IMG/VR virus record: IMGVR_UViG_3300023115_000056 | Location: 1-35,573 of that record | DNA: 35,573 bases | Strand: one strand, 5' to 3' | Source: a virus | Shown here: positions 2,206 through 30,753 of the stretch, one piece after another | Numbering within the stretch: the first letter of the stretch is position 1 | Layout of the letters: each line of letters opens with the position of its first letter | Position numbers and translations under genes: made by a program | The notes under the pieces: model-generated | What the model was told of the DNA's origin: nothing | Database searches by the model: none | The model's input: only the letters and a program-made list of their open reading frames with translations

Positions 2206-2975
2206 TGAAAAACATAGTAAAACTTATGATGCTATTGTTGACTCCTACTTTGTTTGCTGCAGATAACTCGATCTATATTGATCAAGCAGGTGATAGTTCT
2301 AATATTAATATTACTCAAGATGGTGGTGGTAATCAAATCTATGATGTAACCTCAGGTTCTACGTCAACAGATTATGCTACACTGTCTGGTGATAGTCAAA
2401 CAATAGACATTGATCAAATAGGTGGTAGTAATGTGTTAAAGTTAGGCATTCAATCTACAGTATTATCTGGTGTTGGTGTTAACTTAACATATTTTATTAC
2501 TGGTTCAAATTCAGTTGCATCGTTAGATTTTAATGCTGACGGTCAAGGCACATTGGCTAACTTAGTATTTGATGTAACACAAACTGGAAGCTATAACGAT
2601 TTATTTGCTGATATACTTGGTTCAAATAATTCAGTAGTAGCAACAGCAACCGGTGGTAGTTACAATGACTTTAACTTTACAATTAATGCAGATGATGTTT
2701 CCGTTAATGCTGCAATCAGTGGAGGTGGTGGTAATACATTAACTACAAACCTAACAAGTGATTCAGGTTTAGTTGATGTAACTTCTGTTGGAGCATCAAA
2801 TACATTTAGTCTTACACAGTCTGGTGTAGGTGGAACTAACGGTCATGGTATAACATTGGATGTTACAGGTTCAAGTAACTCATTTACAACATCACAGAGT
2901 GGCGCAATTGATACAACTATTGACATTACATCGGTGGGTTCTAATAACACTTGGTCTATTACTACTTCTGATTAG
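2205..2975 (+). CDS. Curlin-repeat secreted protein (CsgA/CsgB-like)
   Basis: 256 residues with a signal peptide (cleavage near TLFA-ADNS). The mature start, IYIDQAGDSSNINITQDG, is a curlin-type repeat (pattern I-x-I-x-Q-x-G-x-x-N-x-x-x-I-x-Q). More degenerate repeats follow, e.g. QTIDIDQIGGSN, GSYNDLFADILGSNNS and SNTFSLTQSGVGG, in a Gly/Ser/Thr/Asn/Asp-rich, cysteine-free sequence expected to form a beta-solenoid/amyloid. It is the likely substrate of the CsgG pore encoded directly upstream and resembles the repeat region of the protein at 4038. Longer and less regular than E. coli CsgA/CsgB. Its 3' end overlaps the probable signal-peptide region of the FecR gene in another frame. Confidence 0.85.
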   Translation: MKNIVKLMMLLLTPTLFAADNSIYIDQAGDSSNINITQDGGGNQIYDVTSGSTSTDYATLSGDSQTIDIDQIGGSNVLKLGIQSTVLSGVGVNLTYFITGSNSVASLDFNADGQGTLANLVFDVTQTGSYNDLFADILGSNNSVVATATGGSYNDFNFTINADDVSVNAAISGGGGNTLTTNLTSDSGLVDVTSVGASNTFSLTQSGVGGTNGHGITLDVTGSSNSFTTSQSGAIDTTIDITSVGSNNTWSITTSD

Positions 2976-4041
2976 TACAACATTGTTGGGTGCTGTTGGT
3001 AAAATTACAAATCAACAGCACGATCCAGCAACAATTGAACGTCAAAAGAAAATTATAGACGGTGTTAAAGGCACTGGCGTCGAAATGAATGACTCACTTA
3101 AAACAGGTGAGGGCAAACTGGGTATTACATTTATTGATGATACTACAGTACAAATGACAGAGAATTCTAAACTTGTCATTGATGAATTTGTATATGATCC
3201 TAATCAAAAAGATGCCGGTAAGTTAGCAATTAAAGTAGCATCAGGGACAGCAAGATATGCAAGCGGGCAAATCGCAAAAAACGATCCTAGCAAAGTTAAA
3301 ATACAAACTCCAACAGCCACAGTTTCTGTACGTGGTACAGATTTTACTGCTACCGTTGGTGAACTTGGTGATAGCACTATTATTCTTTTACCTAGTTGTC
3401 CTGTAGGCTATAAGAAGATAGAAGAATGTACAGTTGGTGTTATTGATGTAGAAACAGGTGCTGGTACAGTAACACTAACAGAAGCATTTTCAGCAACAGT
3501 TGCTACTTACTATGAGAAACCACCTACTCCTCCGGTTAAATTAGACTTAACCGAAAATCAAATATCAAATTTACTTATCTTATCTAAACCAAAAGAATTA
3601 AGAGAAAATCAAAAAGAACAAATTACAATTAAAAGTGCTTTAGATGCAAACTTTCTTGATGTAGATAATTTAAATAATGAACTAGAAGCACAACAAAAGA
3701 ATCTATATGCTGATGCCCTTTCAGAGGATCTATTAGATAGAGATTTCTTACGTAATATATTAGATCTAATTAACTTACAATTAGTTAAAGCAGATGAAAG
3801 AAGATTAGCAGTTAAAAGAGGCGATGAATTATTACCTGACTATGATCCTGATGGACCAGTTAAAGCAACAGTTGATGGTATTGGTGTAACACTATGTATG
3901 GAAACTGGACCAAGTGATGTAAGTTGTGTTCGAACACCGACATCTCAAAATTCAACAATCATACAAACACAAGGTTCTGTGTCAATTACAAACAGGGTTA
4001 ACGATACCGGTACAACAATTATAGAAACTAATCAGAAATGA
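2920..4041 (+). CDS. Secreted FecR-domain protein
   Basis: About 373 residues from the TTG at 2920. The frame is open back to an ATG at 2860, and GTG 2899 is another option; none has a clear ribosome site. Start 2920 is preferred because it gives a compact signal peptide (HRWVLITLGLLLLL, then STTLLGA), so the gene overlaps the end of the curlin gene by 56 nt. The FecR domain is plain: FIDDTTVQMTENSKLVIDEF, then LAIKVASGTARYASGQIAK and the hallmark TPTATVSVRGTDF. The C-terminal half is helical and charged and ends in an NSTIIQTQGSVSITN stretch that looks like a curlin-type strand. No FecI-type sigma factor is nearby. FecR domains of this secreted type often accompany CHASE2 cyclases, as here, so a periplasmic sensing or scaffold role is possible. 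Confidence 0.82.
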   Translation: MTLHRWVLITLGLLLLLISTTLLGAVGKITNQQHDPATIERQKKIIDGVKGTGVEMNDSLKTGEGKLGITFIDDTTVQMTENSKLVIDEFVYDPNQKDAGKLAIKVASGTARYASGQIAKNDPSKVKIQTPTATVSVRGTDFTATVGELGDSTIILLPSCPVGYKKIEECTVGVIDVETGAGTVTLTEAFSATVATYYEKPPTPPVKLDLTENQISNLLILSKPKELRENQKEQITIKSALDANFLDVDNLNNELEAQQKNLYADALSEDLLDRDFLRNILDLINLQLVKADERRLAVKRGDELLPDYDPDGPVKATVDGIGVTLCMETGPSDVSCVRTPTSQNSTIIQTQGSVSITNRVNDTGTTIIETNQK

Positions 4042-5423
4042 GATACTTAATATTCATATTGATGTTTGTGTGTTCAACCGTATTGGCCATAACCTATAAT
4101 CCATATGGATCATCTGGATTGAATACCTCTTATAGTGGCAACTATGATGATGGATCTGTTGCTGTTAGTTTACCTTGGTCGGTGAGTTTTCTTGGCACCA
4201 GTTATAGCACAGCCTATGTTGGCACCAATGGATATGTCACGTTTGGGTCTGGCAATAGCACCTATTATAATTTTTCCGCATCAAATCCATCACAACCACA
4301 TATCGCAGTATATCCTGGCGACCGTAGATTATATACATTATATACTGGTGAGGTCAATGGTGGCACATCGTCTGCCTATTTTGTGATTAGGGTAGAGGGT
4401 GTTGATTATTCCAATGCCGCTATCACCCATGTCTATGAAATTCATTTTTATGCCAACCAAAGTTACTTTGATGTTATCTTTGTTGATGCTCCCTCCTCAG
4501 GAAATCAAAATGGTGGAACATCAGGCGTCAGCGATGGCACAACCTATGAATCAACCTTCACAGTTACAGAGGGAACTGCTATACGACTCAATCTTTCTGA
4601 TGGCAGTGAAGTATCAACAACATCAACATCTACCACAACTGGAACAAGTTCAGGTCCAACTTCAACACAGGCAACAAGACGATCAGAGGCTATAACACGC
4701 AGAGACAGTTATTATGATAATGGCATCTACATTGATCAAGCAGGATCAAATAATTCAATAACCATATTACAGGACAGCAGTGATAATCAGATCAGAGGTA
4801 TTGACCAACAACGAGCTAAGATGTGGGGAAATAACAATACCTATGATATCCGCCAGGGTGCTCCTACCACCACAGGTATTAACTTGATTGAACTCATGGT
4901 AGATGGCGATAGTAATAATTTAACACTGTTCCAAGATAGATTTGATGCTGGAACACCAGATTCAAGTGCTAGTGGTGATAATATATTAAGAATTGACATA
5001 GATGGTAATTCAAACACTGTAGCAACTAATCAACGAGGTGAAACAAATGCTGGTGGTCAATTTGGTGAGATTAATATTACTGGTGATTTAAATGATGTTA
5101 CAATGGTTCAGCGTTCAACTCTTTCTGAAACTGCGTTTATAGATATTACAGGAAATAGTAATGTTGTTGATTTACTACAACAGAATACTTCTAATGCAGT
5201 AGGTTCTACTAAGTTTGCTGATATTAAATTGACAGGAGATGGTCATACTGTTAACTTAACACAAGATGGTACAGGTGGACATCAAGCAACTATTGATCTA
5301 ACTTATGGTTCAGCGCCTTCAACTTTAAATTTAAATCAATTAGGTAGCACTAGTCAATCATTTTCACTAGAACAAACATGCTATACCTCAGGTGGATGTT
5401 CTACAACACTAACTCAACAATAA
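4038..5423 (+). CDS. Second curlin-repeat protein with an extra N-terminal beta domain
   Basis: 461 residues, starting in a 4-nt ATGA overlap with the FecR gene. Signal peptide to about residue 17 (FVCSTVLA). Residues ~18-185 form a separate domain with SFLGTSYSTAYVGTNGYVTF, then aromatic-rich strands, resembling nidogen-like extracellular beta domains. A Ser/Thr linker (~195-225) follows. Residues ~230-461 are curlin-type repeats: IYIDQAGSNNSITILQD, DGDSNNLTLFQD, DGNSNTVATNQRG, TGNSNVVDLLQQ, HTVNLTQDG. The first repeat closely matches that of the protein at 2205. Two Cys near the C-terminus (CYTSGGC) could form a disulphide. Possibly an adhesive or cap subunit of a curli-like fibre. Codons in the N-terminal part look richer in G/C than in the repeat part, suggesting a mosaic. 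Confidence 0.8.
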   Translation: MRYLIFILMFVCSTVLAITYNPYGSSGLNTSYSGNYDDGSVAVSLPWSVSFLGTSYSTAYVGTNGYVTFGSGNSTYYNFSASNPSQPHIAVYPGDRRLYTLYTGEVNGGTSSAYFVIRVEGVDYSNAAITHVYEIHFYANQSYFDVIFVDAPSSGNQNGGTSGVSDGTTYESTFTVTEGTAIRLNLSDGSEVSTTSTSTTTGTSSGPTSTQATRRSEAITRRDSYYDNGIYIDQAGSNNSITILQDSSDNQIRGIDQQRAKMWGNNNTYDIRQGAPTTTGINLIELMVDGDSNNLTLFQDRFDAGTPDSSASGDNILRIDIDGNSNTVATNQRGETNAGGQFGEINITGDLNDVTMVQRSTLSETAFIDITGNSNVVDLLQQNTSNAVGSTKFADIKLTGDGHTVNLTQDGTGGHQATIDLTYGSAPSTLNLNQLGSTSQSFSLEQTCYTSGGCSTTLTQQ

Positions 5424-5434
5424 ATAAATAAAAT

Positions 5435-7444
5435 ATGAAGAAGATACTACTCAGTCCTTGGTTAGCCTTAATTACTTTAGGCTTTATCTTATACATAAGA
5501 ATGCTTGATCCAACATTCGTTGAATCAATGAGATTAAGGTACTTTGATACTTTAATTGCAGGCAAAACTCCTACAGAAAATAATATCTATACTGTCAATA
5601 TTGATGAAGCAACGTTAGATAAGTATGGACAATTCCCATTTAAACGTGATATCTATGCAAAGATTATAGATGACTTATATCAAAGAAATGCTGGATTAGT
5701 TGTATTTAATATCTTAATGCCTGAAGCAGATCGACAAGGTGGTGATGCTAAACTGGCCGAAACACTTAACAAATATGGTAATGTTGTTTTATCAAATGCT
5801 CCCTCCGAAGTAACTAAAAATAATCCAAAAGCACCAGGTTCTGCAGTTATTAATGCACAGTTTTCTGATATGATTATCCAATATCCAGGCATTATAGCAA
5901 ATATACCTGAATTAGAAAATGCTGCGGCCGGTATTGGTATTACTAATATGCTATCTGAAATTGATGGTGTCAATCGAAGAATTCCATTAGTTATAACATA
6001 TAATGAAAAGATCTATCCAAGCTTATCACTCGAAACATTAAGAGTTGCAGTAGGTGATTCTACGGTACAAGTTAAATTGTTTGAAGGTGGTATAGAAAAG
6101 ATGAGGATACCTGCGGTTGGTCAATTATCAACTGATGCGCTAGGTCGAATATGGATAGATTATAGTCAAAAATCAAAATCATTTTCAGCAGTAGATTTAC
6201 CAAAAGACTTTGATGGTGGTATAGTTATTGTTGGAGTAACAGCAGCTGGTTTAGCTAATCCTTTACCAACTGCAATTGGTGGTCTATGGCCACACGATGT
6301 TCAGGCTGCAGTGATAGGAACACTTGCAAATGGTGTTAATATACAACGACCAGACTGGGCAGATGGAGCTGAGATACTTGCATGGTTAGTACTTGGCATT
6401 ATTGCGATATTTTTAACGAGGTGGAAACATGGTTACTTTGGTATTATTTTCATTGGGATTCTTATGTATTATAGTGGCAATACACTTTTTACACAATCCT
6501 CCACACTGGTCGATATATCTTACGGTATTTTGGCTCTTGCTATTGTATATCTACATAGCTATACTGTTAAATTCATAACAGAACTTAATCAAAAATTACA
6601 AATTAAGAAACAATTTGGTACATACTTATCACCAGCTCTTGTAGAAAAACTACAAAAGAATCCTGAGTTATTAAGACTTGGTGGTGAAAGAAGAGATCTA
6701 TCAATAATGTTTACTGATGTTCGAGGATTTACAACAATATCAGAACACTATGGAGATAACGTTGAAGGTTTAACCGAGATCATGAATCGATATATGACAG
6801 CAATGACTCAAAAGATATTAGATAATAATGGGACATTAGACAAATATATTGGTGATGCACAGATGGCATTTTGGAATGCACCATTAGATGATAATGATCA
6901 TGCGATTAATGCAGTTAAGACTGGTTTACAAATGTTAGGGGACTTAGATGAATTCAATCAAGAAATTTCTAAAGAAGGTATCCCACCATTCGGAATGGGA
7001 TTGGGCATTAATACCGGCAGTGTTATTGTTGGTAACATGGGTAGCAGTCAACGTTTTGACTATACTTGCCTCGGGGATGCGGTTAATCTAGCATCAAGAC
7101 TTGAAGGACAAAGTAAGACATATGGTGTTAGAATTATCCTTGGAGAAGGCACTGCAAAACTTGTAAAAGATAAATATACAGTAATAGAATTAGATACCAT
7201 TGCAGTTAAAGGTAAAACTGTAGGGGTTAAGGTATATACAATTGCTGACATAGCAGACATAACTGCTCATAAGAAATATTTAAGAGCATATTATGCAGGT
7301 CAATGGAATGCAGCAATTGTCATGATTCAACACTTAGTGAAAGCAAATTCTGAATTGAAACAATATTATACGAATATGCTCGAACGGTTGAATGAAGGTT
7401 GTCCTAAAGATTGGGACGGTACATATAAAGCAACAAGCAAATAA
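5435..7444 (+). CDS. CHASE2-class III adenylate/guanylate cyclase
   Basis: 669 residues, membrane-bound. N-terminal TM (residues ~8-22), then a periplasmic CHASE2 sensor domain (~25-300; NIYTVNIDEATLDKYGQFPF, GITNM..DGVNRRIPLV, IVIVGVTA), three TMs (~310-375), and a class III cyclase domain (~415-600). Catalytic residues are all present: metal-binding D428 in FTDVRGFT and D474 in DKYIGDAQMAFW, base-recognition K470 and T544 (DYTCLGD), and transition-state N551 and R555 (VNLASRLE). The Lys/Thr pair is typical of bacterial adenylate cyclases, so cAMP is the likely product. Last gene of the curli block, 12 nt after the second curlin gene, preceded by AT-rich AATAAATA at 5423-5430. A signalling cyclase is very unusual in a phage. 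Confidence 0.92.
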   Translation: MKKILLSPWLALITLGFILYIRMLDPTFVESMRLRYFDTLIAGKTPTENNIYTVNIDEATLDKYGQFPFKRDIYAKIIDDLYQRNAGLVVFNILMPEADRQGGDAKLAETLNKYGNVVLSNAPSEVTKNNPKAPGSAVINAQFSDMIIQYPGIIANIPELENAAAGIGITNMLSEIDGVNRRIPLVITYNEKIYPSLSLETLRVAVGDSTVQVKLFEGGIEKMRIPAVGQLSTDALGRIWIDYSQKSKSFSAVDLPKDFDGGIVIVGVTAAGLANPLPTAIGGLWPHDVQAAVIGTLANGVNIQRPDWADGAEILAWLVLGIIAIFLTRWKHGYFGIIFIGILMYYSGNTLFTQSSTLVDISYGILALAIVYLHSYTVKFITELNQKLQIKKQFGTYLSPALVEKLQKNPELLRLGGERRDLSIMFTDVRGFTTISEHYGDNVEGLTEIMNRYMTAMTQKILDNNGTLDKYIGDAQMAFWNAPLDDNDHAINAVKTGLQMLGDLDEFNQEISKEGIPPFGMGLGINTGSVIVGNMGSSQRFDYTCLGDAVNLASRLEGQSKTYGVRIILGEGTAKLVKDKYTVIELDTIAVKGKTVGVKVYTIADIADITAHKKYLRAYYAGQWNAAIVMIQHLVKANSELKQYYTNMLERLNEGCPKDWDGTYKATSK

Positions 7445-7456
7445 CGGGAGATTATT

Positions 7457-7789
7457 ATGGCTGAAGATGTAAAGGGGTTTCACCCAGCAGATACAAATGG
7501 TGATGGAGTAGTTTCACCTGAAGAACAAAAAATGTATCTGGAATTTAAACGAAAAGAATTAGAAGACCAAGATGCAATGAGAGATGCACAAAGAAACATG
7601 GCATGGTTTGCATTATTTGGTATGTTACTCTATCCATTTGCTGTTGTTCTTGCAGTATTATTAGGTTTAGATAGTGCAGCTAAAATCCTTGGTGATATGG
7701 CTGCAACATATTTTGTTTCTGTTGCTGCGATTGTAGCTGCATTCTTTGGTGGTCAAGCATTTGCTGCCAAGAAACCTGCTGCTAAATAA
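7457..7789 (+). CDS. EF-hand motif, two-TM membrane protein
   Basis: 110 residues. Residues 12-24 contain one EF-hand calcium loop (DTNGDGVVSPEE), followed by a charged helix (residues ~25-48) and two hydrophobic helices (WFALFGMLLYPFAVVLAVLL and FVSVAAIVAAFFGGQAF), ending with a short Lys/Ala tail. Good ribosome site (GGGAG) before the ATG. Small EF-hand membrane proteins of this design occur in marine T4-like phages, where the function is not known. It follows the cyclase gene by 12 nt and could be co-transcribed; a late promoter directly after it starts the next transcript. Confidence 0.8.
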   Translation: MAEDVKGFHPADTNGDGVVSPEEQKMYLEFKRKELEDQDAMRDAQRNMAWFALFGMLLYPFAVVLAVLLGLDSAAKILGDMAATYFVSVAAIVAAFFGGQAFAAKKPAAK

Positions 7790-11710: not shown

Positions 11711-12268
11711 ATGAATATTTTTTACTTACATGAAAACCCACAAATATGTGCGCAATATCATGTTGACAAACACTGTGTTAAAATGATTGTTGAAACATGT
11801 CAACTTTTATCTACTGCTCATAGGTATCTTGATGGCAATGAAATAGTCGGACATACGAGAACTGGTAGAAAAGCAAAGCGCTGGGTTCTACCTGATTCAC
11901 GTGAAACTCAGCTCTATCATGCTACACATATTAATCATCCATCAACAGTATGGACAAGACAATCAAAAGCAAATTACTTATGGTTACATTCATTATTAAT
12001 GGAATTGCTTAAGGAATATACTTATCGTTATGAAAAACAACATAAGTGTACAGTACTAGCCGAAGCTCTTAAGACTCCTCCAACTAATATTGCTGATGTA
12101 CCATTTACAGAACCTACTCCAGCCATGCCAGATGAGTATAAAATAGCTGGTAATTCAATACAATCTTACCATAATTACTATAATGGTGAGAAGCAAAGAA
12201 TGTTTAATTGGAAGAAAAGGCAAGCTCCTTCGTTTATAAATAACTATAATATATTATCAAAGGAATAA
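11711..12268 (+). CDS. Pyrimidine-dimer DNA glycosylase-like protein
   Basis: 185 residues. The N-terminus MNIFYLHENPQICAQYHVDKH followed by VKMIVETCQLLSTAHRYLDG, then ATHINHPSTVWTRQS, KEYTYRYEKQHK, FTEPTPAMPDEYK and SYHNYYNGEKQRMFNWKKR, is a pattern conserved in many phage proteins annotated as pyrimidine-dimer glycosylase-like (Pyr_excise). T4 DenV itself is shorter and quite different, so DNA repair is a family-level guess. No ribosome site is present; the promoter TATAAT lies 6 nt before the ATG, predicting a leaderless message. A TATAAATA late element lies within its 3' end. Confidence 0.6.
   Translation: MNIFYLHENPQICAQYHVDKHCVKMIVETCQLLSTAHRYLDGNEIVGHTRTGRKAKRWVLPDSRETQLYHATHINHPSTVWTRQSKANYLWLHSLLMELLKEYTYRYEKQHKCTVLAEALKTPPTNIADVPFTEPTPAMPDEYKIAGNSIQSYHNYYNGEKQRMFNWKKRQAPSFINNYNILSKE
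12235..12242 (+). promoter_or_regulatory. Possible late promoter inside the end of the glycosylase-like gene
   Basis: A TATAAATA octamer whose predicted start (~12248) gives a 22-nt leader with an AAAGGA site for the gene at 12270. It lies in coding sequence, so chance is possible in this AT-rich DNA. Confidence 0.4.
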
Positions 12269-13474: not shown

Positions 13475-14113
13475 ATGTCATTTGAATTCGATTTCACACA
13501 AGCAAAACTAGAGGACCTTTTGAAGGGAAACAAAGAAGTGTCATCTTGGCATGAAGCAATGGTTGAATACTTTCCTAAATTCGAGATTACTACAGCTCCA
13601 AGAGTTGCGGCATTCATTGCGCAGTGTGGACACGAATCAAGGAATTTTACTGTACTCACAGAAAACTTGAACTACTCGGCCGAAGCATTAGATAAAATAT
13701 TTCCAAAGTATTTTAAAAATGCTGGCCGAGATGCTCAAGAATACCATAGACAACCAGAAAAAATTGCCAATGTAATCTATGCTAATCGTATGGGTAATGG
13801 TGATACAGAATCTGGAGATGGTTGGTTCTATAGAGGAAGAGGCCCAATCCAATTAACTGGTAAGGATAACTATACAAACTTTGCTAATGATTTCTTTGAT
13901 GATCCTGAAACAGTTATGGATGATCCTGATCTACTATGTGACCACATACCAACCGCTTTATTAGCTGCTATTTGGTTCTGGAACAAGAATGGACTAAATA
14001 AGTATGCTGATGAAAAAGATATTAAAGGTATGACAAAGAGGATCAATGGTGGATATATTGGTTTAGAAGATAGAATCAAGCACTATGATCATGCTATGGA
14101 AATCTTAGGATAA
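13475..14113 (+). CDS. Glycoside hydrolase family 19 endolysin
   Basis: 212 residues. GH19 (chitinase/lysozyme-like) signatures: FIAQCGHESRNFTVLTENLN, with the likely catalytic Glu at 54 and a second Glu at 63; then ANRMGNGDTESGDGWFYRGR followed by GPIQLTGKDNY, the most conserved block; and TKRINGGYIGLEDR near the end. Expected to cleave the glycan strands of peptidoglycan at the end of infection. No signal peptide, so release would need a holin; the small membrane protein directly upstream and the lipoprotein directly downstream suggest a lysis cassette. GGGAG ribosome site. Confidence 0.9.
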   Translation: MSFEFDFTQAKLEDLLKGNKEVSSWHEAMVEYFPKFEITTAPRVAAFIAQCGHESRNFTVLTENLNYSAEALDKIFPKYFKNAGRDAQEYHRQPEKIANVIYANRMGNGDTESGDGWFYRGRGPIQLTGKDNYTNFANDFFDDPETVMDDPDLLCDHIPTALLAAIWFWNKNGLNKYADEKDIKGMTKRINGGYIGLEDRIKHYDHAMEILG

Positions 14114-15055: not shown

Positions 15056-15601
15056 ATGAAACCAAGAGTTATTGTACTTGCAATTTTTATTTTATTTGTT
15101 TTATCGATAGCAATCTTTGAAACAGAACCAGATGCTAAAACATCATATCAAGAAGACCAGATAATACGATATTCTCAACTTGATGAATCAGATCGAAGAC
15201 AAGTTGAGTGTTTGGCACAGAATATATATTACGAAGCTAGAGGTGAAAGCGAAGACGGACACATTGCTATAGCTCTCGTAACAATGAATCGATCTTTAAG
15301 TAAACTATATCCTGATGATGTATGTCATGTTGTTAGAGAAAAGCTTGGAAAAACCTGTCAATTTACATGGTGGTGCGATCCAAATCTAAGAAGTAAAGCG
15401 ACAACATACAATTATACAAAATTAGAAAGAAAAGTATATGATGATATTAGGGAACTCGCATTACATTTATATGTCAATCGAGATAATATAGAAGACTTGA
15501 CTGGAGGTGCAATCTTTTATCATGCTAACTACGTTAACCCACGTTGGAAGTATAAAAAGACAGCACAAATAGGAAAACATATTTTTTATAAAAGAAAGTA
15601 G
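15056..15601 (+). CDS. SleB/CwlJ-type cell wall hydrolase with signal anchor
   Basis: 181 residues. N-terminal hydrophobic segment (VIVLAIFILFVLSIAIF) acts as a signal anchor or uncleaved signal. The hydrolase domain (~45-178) has LAQNIYYEARGESEDGHIAI with the conserved Glu60/Glu64, then IALVTMNR, DVCHVV, CQFTWWCD and GGAIFYHANYVNPRW, as in the SleB/CwlJ (Hydrolase_2) family of peptidoglycan-cleaving enzymes. A membrane-exported muralytic enzyme could act in lysis alongside the cytoplasmic GH19 enzyme. AAGGAAG ribosome site and its own promoter. Confidence 0.88.
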   Translation: MKPRVIVLAIFILFVLSIAIFETEPDAKTSYQEDQIIRYSQLDESDRRQVECLAQNIYYEARGESEDGHIAIALVTMNRSLSKLYPDDVCHVVREKLGKTCQFTWWCDPNLRSKATTYNYTKLERKVYDDIRELALHLYVNRDNIEDLTGGAIFYHANYVNPRWKYKKTAQIGKHIFYKRK

Positions 15602-29267: not shown

Positions 29268-29821
29268 GTGTACCAAATACTTTTGCTGCAAGAACTGGTT
29301 CAATACCTCTTGCAGATTTAGATGAAAATTTTACAAGTTTAGACACAAATAAACTAGACAAAACTGGTAGTGCAACATTATCAGGAAATTTAACTATTAC
29401 TGGTGATTTAACTGTTAATGGAACTCAAAATATTATTAATACAACTGATTTAGCAGTTGAAGATAATATGATTTATTTAAATAGTGAATCAACAGTGGCA
29501 AACCCAGATTTTGGTATTGCTGGTAATTATAATGATGGTACATATCAACATGCAGGTTTATTTAGAGATGCCAGTGATGGATATTGGAAATTTTATGATA
29601 GCTATACTCCAGAACCAGATGCATCTGCATTTATTGATACAACGCATACATCGTATAGTTCAGCACCATTACAAGTATCAACTGTTAAATTAAATAATTG
29701 GACAATTACAGAATCAGGCGGTGTACTATATTTTGCTACAGGTGGTACAAATAAAATGAAACTAGATGCTTCAGGAAATTTAACTGTAACTGGTGATGTG
29801 ACTGCATTTGGAACTGTTTAA
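29264..29821 (+). CDS. Tail fibre/structural protein with repeat-type beta strands
   Basis: 185 residues from the ATG at 29264 (ATGA overlap with the previous stop; GGGTGGG upstream). N-terminus SVPNTFAARTGSIPLADLDE, NFTSLDTNKL, then ATLSGNLTITGDLTVNGTQN, a motif repeated at the C-terminus as ASGNLTVTGDVTAFGT. The centre has LAVEDNMIYLNSES, PDFGIAGNYNDGTYQHAGLF and DGYWKFYDS, a block shared by fibre proteins of marine T4-like phages. Likely a fibre or baseplate-attached spike subunit. Confidence 0.78.
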   Translation: MSVPNTFAARTGSIPLADLDENFTSLDTNKLDKTGSATLSGNLTITGDLTVNGTQNIINTTDLAVEDNMIYLNSESTVANPDFGIAGNYNDGTYQHAGLFRDASDGYWKFYDSYTPEPDASAFIDTTHTSYSSAPLQVSTVKLNNWTITESGGVLYFATGGTNKMKLDASGNLTVTGDVTAFGTV

Positions 29822-30753
29822 TGGCTTTACAATCTTCAGGTCAAATATCATTAAAGAATATTGCTGACGAATTTGGAGATGCTGCACCTCATTCAATGAG
29901 TGAATTTTACAGTGCTGCTGCTGGAGTTCCTGCATCAGGACAAATTAAACATAGCAATTTTTATGGTAAAGCTTCTACTAAATCAGTATCAATTACTGTA
30001 TATGGTGCTAGTGGTGGATCAAATGGAGGAAACGATGCAGGTGGCCAAGGCGGTACTGTCGTATGGAATGGAACAATGTCACCTGGTACTGTGCTAACTA
30101 TGTATGTTGCTCGAGCAGGAACAAACGGAAATAATCAGGGTAGAGCTGGCGGTGGAGGCGGAGGAGCTTCTGCTGTATTAATTGGTAGCACTTTAATTGC
30201 TATTGGCGGTGGAGGCGGAGGAGCTGGCGCAGACGGAATAAATAATGCATCAACATATGGTGGCGCTGGGGGTGCTGATACTGGACAAAGTGGCGGAAAT
30301 AACTTAAATCACGTTGGAGCCGCGTATGGTGGCGGTGGAGGTACACAAAGCGGTGTGGGTGGCGGTGGTTCAGGTTCACGAGGAACAGGTAATTCTGGCT
30401 CTGGAAGAAATGGTGGTAATGGTATATTTTCAGGTAATAATGGAACATTTGCAGGCGGTTGGGGATATGGTACTGGTGGTAATGGTTATTTAGATCTTGG
30501 TGATGGAGGATCTGGAGGGGGTGGTGCTGGATACTTTGGTGCAGGATCAGGTGGTAGAAATGCTTCAGGAGCAGGCGGCGGAGGAGGTTCTAATTATAGA
30601 AGGACTTCAAGTATGCCAACCGGAGTAACATATATATCATCTACTACAACACGAGGTGGTAGAAGCGGAAATGGGCAAATTATAGTTACTGTTGATGGTG
30701 TATCAACAACATATAATTACGTATCAAATACAACACAAACGAGAACAATTTAA
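29821..30753 (+). CDS. Glycine-rich tail fibre adhesin
   Basis: 310 residues. N-terminal ~50 residues (MALQSSGQISLKNIADEFGD, PHSMSEFYSA, GQIKHSNFYGK) form the attachment motif found at the start of many marine phage tail proteins. Residues ~55-310 are very rich in Gly with many runs (GGGGGGAS, IAIGGGGGGAGADG, GGGGTQSG), resembling the polyglycine receptor-binding tips of T-even gp38 adhesins (e.g. phage S16) and other Gly-rich host-recognition proteins. Probable receptor-binding protein. It overlaps both neighbours by one base. The high G content of the Gly codons makes this the most GC-rich gene in the block. Confidence 0.75.
   Translation: MALQSSGQISLKNIADEFGDAAPHSMSEFYSAAAGVPASGQIKHSNFYGKASTKSVSITVYGASGGSNGGNDAGGQGGTVVWNGTMSPGTVLTMYVARAGTNGNNQGRAGGGGGGASAVLIGSTLIAIGGGGGGAGADGINNASTYGGAGGADTGQSGGNNLNHVGAAYGGGGGTQSGVGGGGSGSRGTGNSGSGRNGGNGIFSGNNGTFAGGWGYGTGGNGYLDLGDGGSGGGGAGYFGAGSGGRNASGAGGGGGSNYRRTSSMPTGVTYISSTTTRGGRSGNGQIIVTVDGVSTTYNYVSNTTQTRTI

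Follow-up and report, generated by a model that had tools for sequence, protein, structure and literature searches.

In phages, the destruction of signalling nucleotides is better known than their synthesis. The gene at positions 5435 to 7444 (plus strand) of the window, that is, of the whole 35,573-nt stretch of virus DNA analysed here, raises the question of what a phage might do with a membrane sensor that is predicted to make one. The gene starts with ATG and encodes a protein of 669 aa, described in an initial annotation as an adenylate cyclase with a CHASE2 sensor and a transmembrane bundle. The HMM searches proposed there both gave matches, to CHASE2 (PF05226; E 1.5e-40, residues 16–323, 139.9 bits against a cut-off of 26.3) and to Guanylate_cyc (PF00211; E 6.9e-20, residues 421–603, 71.8 bits against a cut-off of 21.9). 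The full-length AlphaFold2 model (mean pLDDT 87, pTM 0.61) showed in order a helix (residues 8–24), an alpha/beta domain, three helices (309–327, 333–355 and 362–394) and a cyclase fold. On the plus strand, we assign a predicted first transmembrane helix to 5456–5506 (residues 8–24; a helix in the model and hydrophobic by reading), a predicted periplasmic CHASE2 sensor domain to 5513–6349 (residues 27–305), a predicted transmembrane bundle of three helices with linker to 6359–6616 (residues 309–394) and the class III catalytic domain to 6680–7249 (residues 416–605). This is the layout of a CHASE2 receptor, with an N-terminal transmembrane helix, CHASE2, three transmembrane helices and an output domain in a predicted membrane topology.

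Modelled alone, the CHASE2 domain reached pLDDT 92.8 and pTM 0.90. It had no clear fold match in the PDB (best Foldseek E 0.28, VIA Z 5.2), despite which we do not claim a new fold. The catalytic domain, recognizable by its conserved residues, superposed on that of Pseudomonas aeruginosa CyaB (3r5g; VIA Z 23.1, rmsd 2.1) with 38% identity over 188 aligned residues; the sensor half of CyaB presumably differs from that of the window cyclase. Judged from sequence and model, the product of 5435–7444 is confirmed as a transmembrane-CHASE2-three-transmembrane-class III cyclase protein, and this phage membrane sensor is very probably a producer of cAMP.

All six class III catalytic residues that the initial annotation had listed (D428, K470, D474, T544, N551 and R555) were found intact at these positions when aligned with solved class III cyclases, and no substituted active site appeared in that alignment. 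We take D428 and D474 to be the metal-binding aspartates, K470 and T544 the purine pair, and N551 and R555 the transition-state residues. The K470/T544 pair suggests ATP as the substrate. We then compared phage relatives from IMG/VR, where scans gave at least 598, 302 and at least 585 candidate stretches encoding relatives, and kept the best 80 of each. These relatives fall into three clades, A (the window's clade), B and C. Among the best rows of each scan, D428, K470, D474, N551 and R555 were all kept in 243/244 phage rows (A, 80/80; B, 84/84; C, 79/80), the lone exception being a clade C sequence that ends at a contig edge. Position 544 is T in 80/80 clade A rows and S in clades B and C. 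At least 99% identity was seen in 52/188 scored columns of the cyclase domain versus 17/271 of the CHASE2 domain, which indicates that the output is conserved while the sensor diverges and that the catalytic pattern does not reflect general conservation alone. An active site that is intact and conserved across the phage relatives argues for an enzyme kept by selection.

The initial annotation had also coupled the cyclase to FecR and curlin genes, and these do lie directly upstream, all on the plus strand and with Pfam matches. The cluster begins with two small one-helix, holin-like proteins, s2 at 346–624 (phrog_18771, 3.6e-33; holin phrog_4898, 2.4e-4) and its paralogue s3 at 721–996 (phrog_18771 and phrog_4898 across members). 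They are followed by CsgF at 926–1414 (PF10614, 4.6e-13), the outer-membrane curli pore CsgG at 1414–2205 (PF03783, 1.2e-49), a curlin-repeat protein and candidate fibre subunit at 2205–2975 (PF07012, 4.7e-5), a FecR-domain protein at 2860–4041 (PF04773, 8.3e-10; secretion signal by reading only), a second curlin-like repeat protein at 4038–5423 and the cyclase. The FecR gene has several in-frame starts and probably begins nearer 2920 than 2860. The second curlin-like protein matched Pfam weakly (Curlin_rpt, E 0.085, two stretches); many relatives have a homologue at the same place.

Downstream of the cyclase lie genes for DsbA, RNase H, PhoH, a GH19 endolysin-like protein, a ClpP-like protein, SSB and T4-like tail and baseplate proteins (PhoH and ClpP by reading). 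Judged by its genes, the window comes from a T4-like phage; the virus record is only 35.6 kb and so covers no more than part of the genome. Bacterial contamination was rejected, as the cluster is flanked by genes for T4-like tail and baseplate proteins, SSB and DsbA, and 98%-identical contigs carry the cyclase together with the DsbA, RNase H and PhoH genes. By the baseplate protein, the nearest named phages are Pelagibacter and Methylophilales phages (~40%); a closer match within IMG/VR (62%) comes from a record that names no host.

The window holds several other features. A small protein encoded at 7457–7789 combines two predicted membrane helices with a loop resembling an EF-hand (EF-hand_5, E 0.0022). 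We set it aside as a partner of the cyclase, since its homologue adjoins the tape-measure gene in phages HTVC008M and Melnitz. Two lysis candidates lie near the cluster: the GH19 chitinase-like endolysin at 13475–14113 (5.5e-8), and at 15056–15601 a gene that, by reading only, would encode a cell-wall hydrolase of the SleB kind. A pyrimidine dimer DNA glycosylase-like protein at 11711–12268 scored slightly under the Pfam cut-off (22.1 versus 23 bits), and a glycine-rich protein at 29821–30753 has a GC content of 0.45 versus about 0.33, with strong GC skew. An Rfam search of the 35,573-nt window gave no match. The proposal that the cyclase acts late in infection found no support: the late-promoter-like motif ATAAATA occurs 18 times where 27.8 are expected. 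With a count below chance, we dropped the T4-type late promoter reading as uninformative on timing.

Is this arrangement new? A tblastn search of 50,697 phage records gave eight matches, six of which cover at least 80% of the query. These six, at 38–39% identity, come from Melnitz (four isolates) and HTVC008M (two records). Both HTVC008M (NC_020484) and the Methylophilales phage Melnitz (MZ577097) have the window's gene order from s2 and s3 through CsgF, CsgG, curlin, FecR and curlin to the cyclase. The HTVC008M cyclase (39% identity over 83% of the query) belongs to a separate clade and lacks the C-terminal tail of the window cyclase. That of Melnitz (38% identity over 99%), which was scored apart from the 244-row set, differs from it in having D at position 544 and S at 551, and from these residues the cyclase of this one cultured relative may be weakened. 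An uncultured Caudovirales protein (A0A6J5RWB7, COG4252) matched the fold over the whole length (TM 0.91) at 49% identity to the window cyclase. The other two tblastn records are named as Acinetobacter phage, and their match is confined to the cyclase domain. One of these, L084 (CAKLQH020000011; Acinetobacter phage MD-2021a), carries chromosomal genes such as mfd, hscA and iscS on either side of the match and is likely mislabelled bacterial DNA. A record of 1499 bases named Salmonella phage S.Kent 1-2-1 (OR851715.1) encodes a CsgG-like protein with 40.9% identity to the window's.

The clusters themselves have been described. Wittmers et al. 2022 report pelagiphage curli (T8SS) clusters that include FecR and adenylate cyclase in podo- and myophages, give CsgD, CsgE and CsgC as absent in pelagiphages, and present trees that place the phage cluster genes near alphaproteobacteria (PMC9599517). 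Zaragoza-Solas et al. report a curli operon in pelagimyophages (PMC7029224), Buchholz et al. discuss CsgGF in Melnitz (PMC9004378) and csgG is listed in marine phages (PMC7003362). A search of the Buchholz (PMC9004378) and Wittmers (PMC9599517) papers did not turn up the term CHASE2. The phage CHASE2-cyclase is thus less novel than the initial annotation had supposed: it is already annotated in HTVC008M and Melnitz, clusters of curli, FecR and cyclase genes are published (PMC9599517) and IMG/VR holds hundreds of relatives. The window cyclase cluster is a further case of the published pelagiphage curli-FecR-cyclase kind, in a little-described clade.

To place this clade, two trees were computed, both quick searches with SH-aLRT support only. 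After a redundancy filter, the first took in 33 of 82 long phage rows and 51 of 80 bacterial rows, to which the window, Melnitz and HTVC008M were added; the second used the rows of the first thinned to every second or third. In the first, unrooted tree (36 phage and 51 bacterial rows), a branch with SH-aLRT 100 separates all phage rows from the bacterial ones. In the second, a branch with support 96 unites clades B and C. Judged from these sequences, the window clade is large and separate from HTVC008M and Melnitz. Clade A, represented by the best 80 of at least 598 stretches, includes contigs of 229–344 kb; of the four clade A contigs above 229 kb that we tried, three have a terminase. Four very large phage contigs of 265–344 kb (L036, L053, L032 and L060) carry curli-FecR-cyclase clusters but match the window's T4-like baseplate protein only weakly. 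The clade B records tried gave no match for the baseplate protein or terminase (PF03237). The 137.6 kb contig of L251 in clade B has PHROGs for DNA polymerase, clamp loader, baseplate and virion proteins, and for this contig only is the phage nature of clade B settled.

The genes upstream of the cyclase differ between the clades. We counted neighbourhoods at loci with at least 2.5 kb upstream, which left out 15/80 (A), 63/80 (B) and 43/80 (C). FecR lies upstream on the same strand at 57/65 (A), 11/17 (B) and 36/37 (C) loci. The exporter in clade C is curli only (37/37). Clade A has curli only at 54/65 loci, type I secretion at none and neither at 11/65, a count of same-strand upstream genes that includes several loci with curli genes on the opposite strand. 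In clade B, type I genes only were found at 12/17 loci, curli only at 3/17 and neither at 2/17. At L197, for example, the order is FecR, OEP, ABC-like, HlyD, cyclase, s2 and s3. The L197 contig is binned with an alphaproteobacterial genome, and we rejected L195/L197 as a bacterial match because it looks like phage DNA in a MAG. At L251, Pfam names FecR with cadherin, OEP and HlyD, and the FecR protein has 1696 aa with cadherin domains. A type I system and a giant FecR(-cadherin) gene thus precede a CHASE2 cyclase with s2/s3 at L197 and at loci in the range L205–L284 (e.g. L251, 1578–12222). At L207, a type I cluster with cyclase adjoins a curli cluster in the opposite orientation, behind which stands a second, different and shorter CHASE2 cyclase (548 aa), and L270 shows a similar pattern in a locus that is cut off; in both, the second cyclase lies divergently from its curli cluster. 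The sequences indicate that clade B, a sister phage clade, has kept the cyclase and s2/s3 while a type I system with giant FecR replaces curli. This is new as far as our searches show; no paper describing a phage cluster of type I, FecR and cyclase genes turned up, either directly or under neighbouring subjects, with subscription papers mostly outside the coverage.

The s2/s3 genes accompany the cluster even where it is inverted, and both were present at 50/76 (A), 68/80 (B) and 19/68 (C) loci with enough flank. All 24 members examined matched phrog_18771 (unknown), 15/24 matched the holin phrog_4898 (best 7.2e-5) and 9/24 the Pfam family YvrJ (best 0.0044). Among these 24 there was no match to a kinase domain or to a Pfam holin family. 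Wittmers et al. place one or two histidine kinases before CsgF in podovirus clusters (PMC9599517). That 'histidine kinase' may be the holin-like s2/s3 pair, with the label at fault rather than the gene, a suggestion that is new as far as our searches show. The frequent presence of s2/s3 and their holin matches also bear on a reading in which s2/s3, exporter and cyclase form an envelope monitor whose cAMP delays or triggers lysis, and a lysis role for CsgGF has been proposed by Buchholz et al. (PMC9004378). However, the holin match is weak and lacks a counterpart in the Pfam holin families, and cAMP-controlled phage lysis was not found in the literature examined; we consider such lysis timing quite unlikely.

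Where might the cassette come from? Scanning genome contigs with the single cyclase protein gave no relative; scanning with the alignment gave alphaproteobacterial relatives at 32–37% identity. Of 570 bacterial rows we used the best 80, most of them alphaproteobacterial. Among loci from this set with at least 1.5 kb upstream, FecR lies immediately upstream in 25/72, a strict count that may miss giant FecR genes, which can exceed the 8 kb flank. The giant-FecR profile matched at 31/80 loci of the best 80, HlyD at 25/80 and at least two type I genes at 14/80, while the CsgF, CsgG, curlin, s2 and s3 profiles matched at 0/80. CsgG was found in 0/24 of the cyclase-bearing bacterial genomes, in a search that had no positive control. 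Across the class, 32/385 genomes matched CsgG, five of them strongly, and these five have neither FecR nor cyclase within about 20 kb. A plasmid search gave 579 records with weaker matches, mostly rhizobial. From FecR at 25/72, HlyD at 25/80 and curli at 0/80 among the best 80 of 570, we read FecR with type I genes as the bacterial setting; the curli linkage appears to be a phage combination, as far as the sampled loci go. That FecR and type I genes, not curli, lie beside alphaproteobacterial cyclases is, as far as our searches show, new.

The phylogeny that had been proposed for finding the donor lineage names no donor species, as the bacterial rows (best 80 of 570) form one side of the branch. 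The alphaproteobacterial relatives would fit a bacterial FecR-CHASE2 cyclase segment that is carried along with the curli genes and has no function in infection. Against such a passenger stand the deep split between phage and bacterial cyclases (SH-aLRT 100) and the catalytic residues kept in nearly all phage rows (243/244), and we find it scarcely credible.

We propose that the cyclase, a putative phage-borne transmembrane adenylyl cyclase, is the output arm of a sensor of surface export, a reading that we hold to be evenly balanced but the likeliest of those considered. The phage would make a fibre or adhesin together with an outer-membrane exporter, here CsgG/CsgF and curlin-like proteins and in relatives a type I exporter and a giant FecR protein. 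A periplasmic FecR protein would report the state of export to the CHASE2 domain, which would lift or impose a block on the cytoplasmic cyclase dimer. cAMP would then rise, and a host cAMP receptor, or an undescribed one, would alter host physiology during infection. The domains, the conserved active site, the FecR-cyclase linkage, the exporter swap and the bacterial FecR/type I linkage can be read from the sequences at hand; we infer the ATP specificity, the contact between FecR and CHASE2, the receptor, what the signal is and whether it activates or represses. That the cyclase would sense fibres is strengthened by the exporter swap. Somewhat more tentatively, the sensor may be portable: FecR, CHASE2 cyclase and s2/s3 would stay constant, the exporter would be exchangeable (curli type VIII versus type I giant FecR adhesins) and cAMP would report surfaced fibres.

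FecR-domain proteins work in periplasmic signalling, as established for E. coli FecR. The chain from phage exporter through FecR to CHASE2 is drawn by analogy with the cyclases CyaD1, CyaD2 and CyaK of Sinorhizobium meliloti, which share the CHASE2-cyclase architecture with the window cyclase and have a FecR-domain gene near cyaD1. They differ from it in being chromosomal or on a megaplasmid and in sensing plant signals. In one report, a protein signal perceived via an outer-membrane beta-barrel leads the CHASE2 cyclases of S. meliloti to raise cAMP (PMC13001267). In another, the FecR-domain gene smc02177 lies near cyaD1 (smc02176), a CyaD1 construct without CHASE2 makes cAMP constitutively, and the FecR-domain gene is dispensable for perceiving the known plant signal (PMC5498481), which counts against the exporter-FecR-CHASE2 chain. 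A Burkholderia operon of FecR-LysM and CHASE2-kinase genes is tied to biofilm (PMC5192318). Further points against the export-sensing reading are the minority of bacterial loci with adjacent FecR by the strict count, the 11/65 clade A loci with no exporter upstream on the same strand, the D544/S551 of Melnitz and the divergently placed second cyclase of L207/L270.

A cNMP-binding domain (PF00027) was found in 0/21 phage records, with a control that was positive in 10/14 genomes; this, which is new as far as our searches show, is another point against the export-sensing reading. A host receptor therefore probably reads the signal. The count of 0/21, like the intact active site, would also suit a cAMP source, constitutive or envelope-gated, that would rewire host metabolism via a host Crp-like receptor and share no more than expression with the curli and FecR genes, the more so as cAMP-Crp is generally known to govern much of bacterial metabolism. 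However, all three phage clades keep the sensor half, and the cyclase still has FecR and an exporter beside it where one exporter type has given way to the other, so we regard a purely metabolic source as unlikely. Pycsar defence, in which a pyrimidine cyclase has an adjacent effector, uses cyclases of the same broad family, and phage cAMP could in principle compete with or mistune such host cyclic-nucleotide defence; a large periplasmic sensor and a linkage to fibre export would not be expected for that task, which makes anti-defence very improbable.

If the export-sensing reading is true, a widespread phage family would make cAMP via a membrane sensor and thereby run a phage-written signalling circuit in infected cells. 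For specialists, the new element would be one cyclase sensor with exchangeable exporters, which rests on IMG/VR loci outside the window. The exporter swap amounts to a natural experiment: any part that persists beside the cyclase despite a change of fibre is likely to be the core of the sensor. In this way, what the puzzling curli clusters do for phages can be put to the test.
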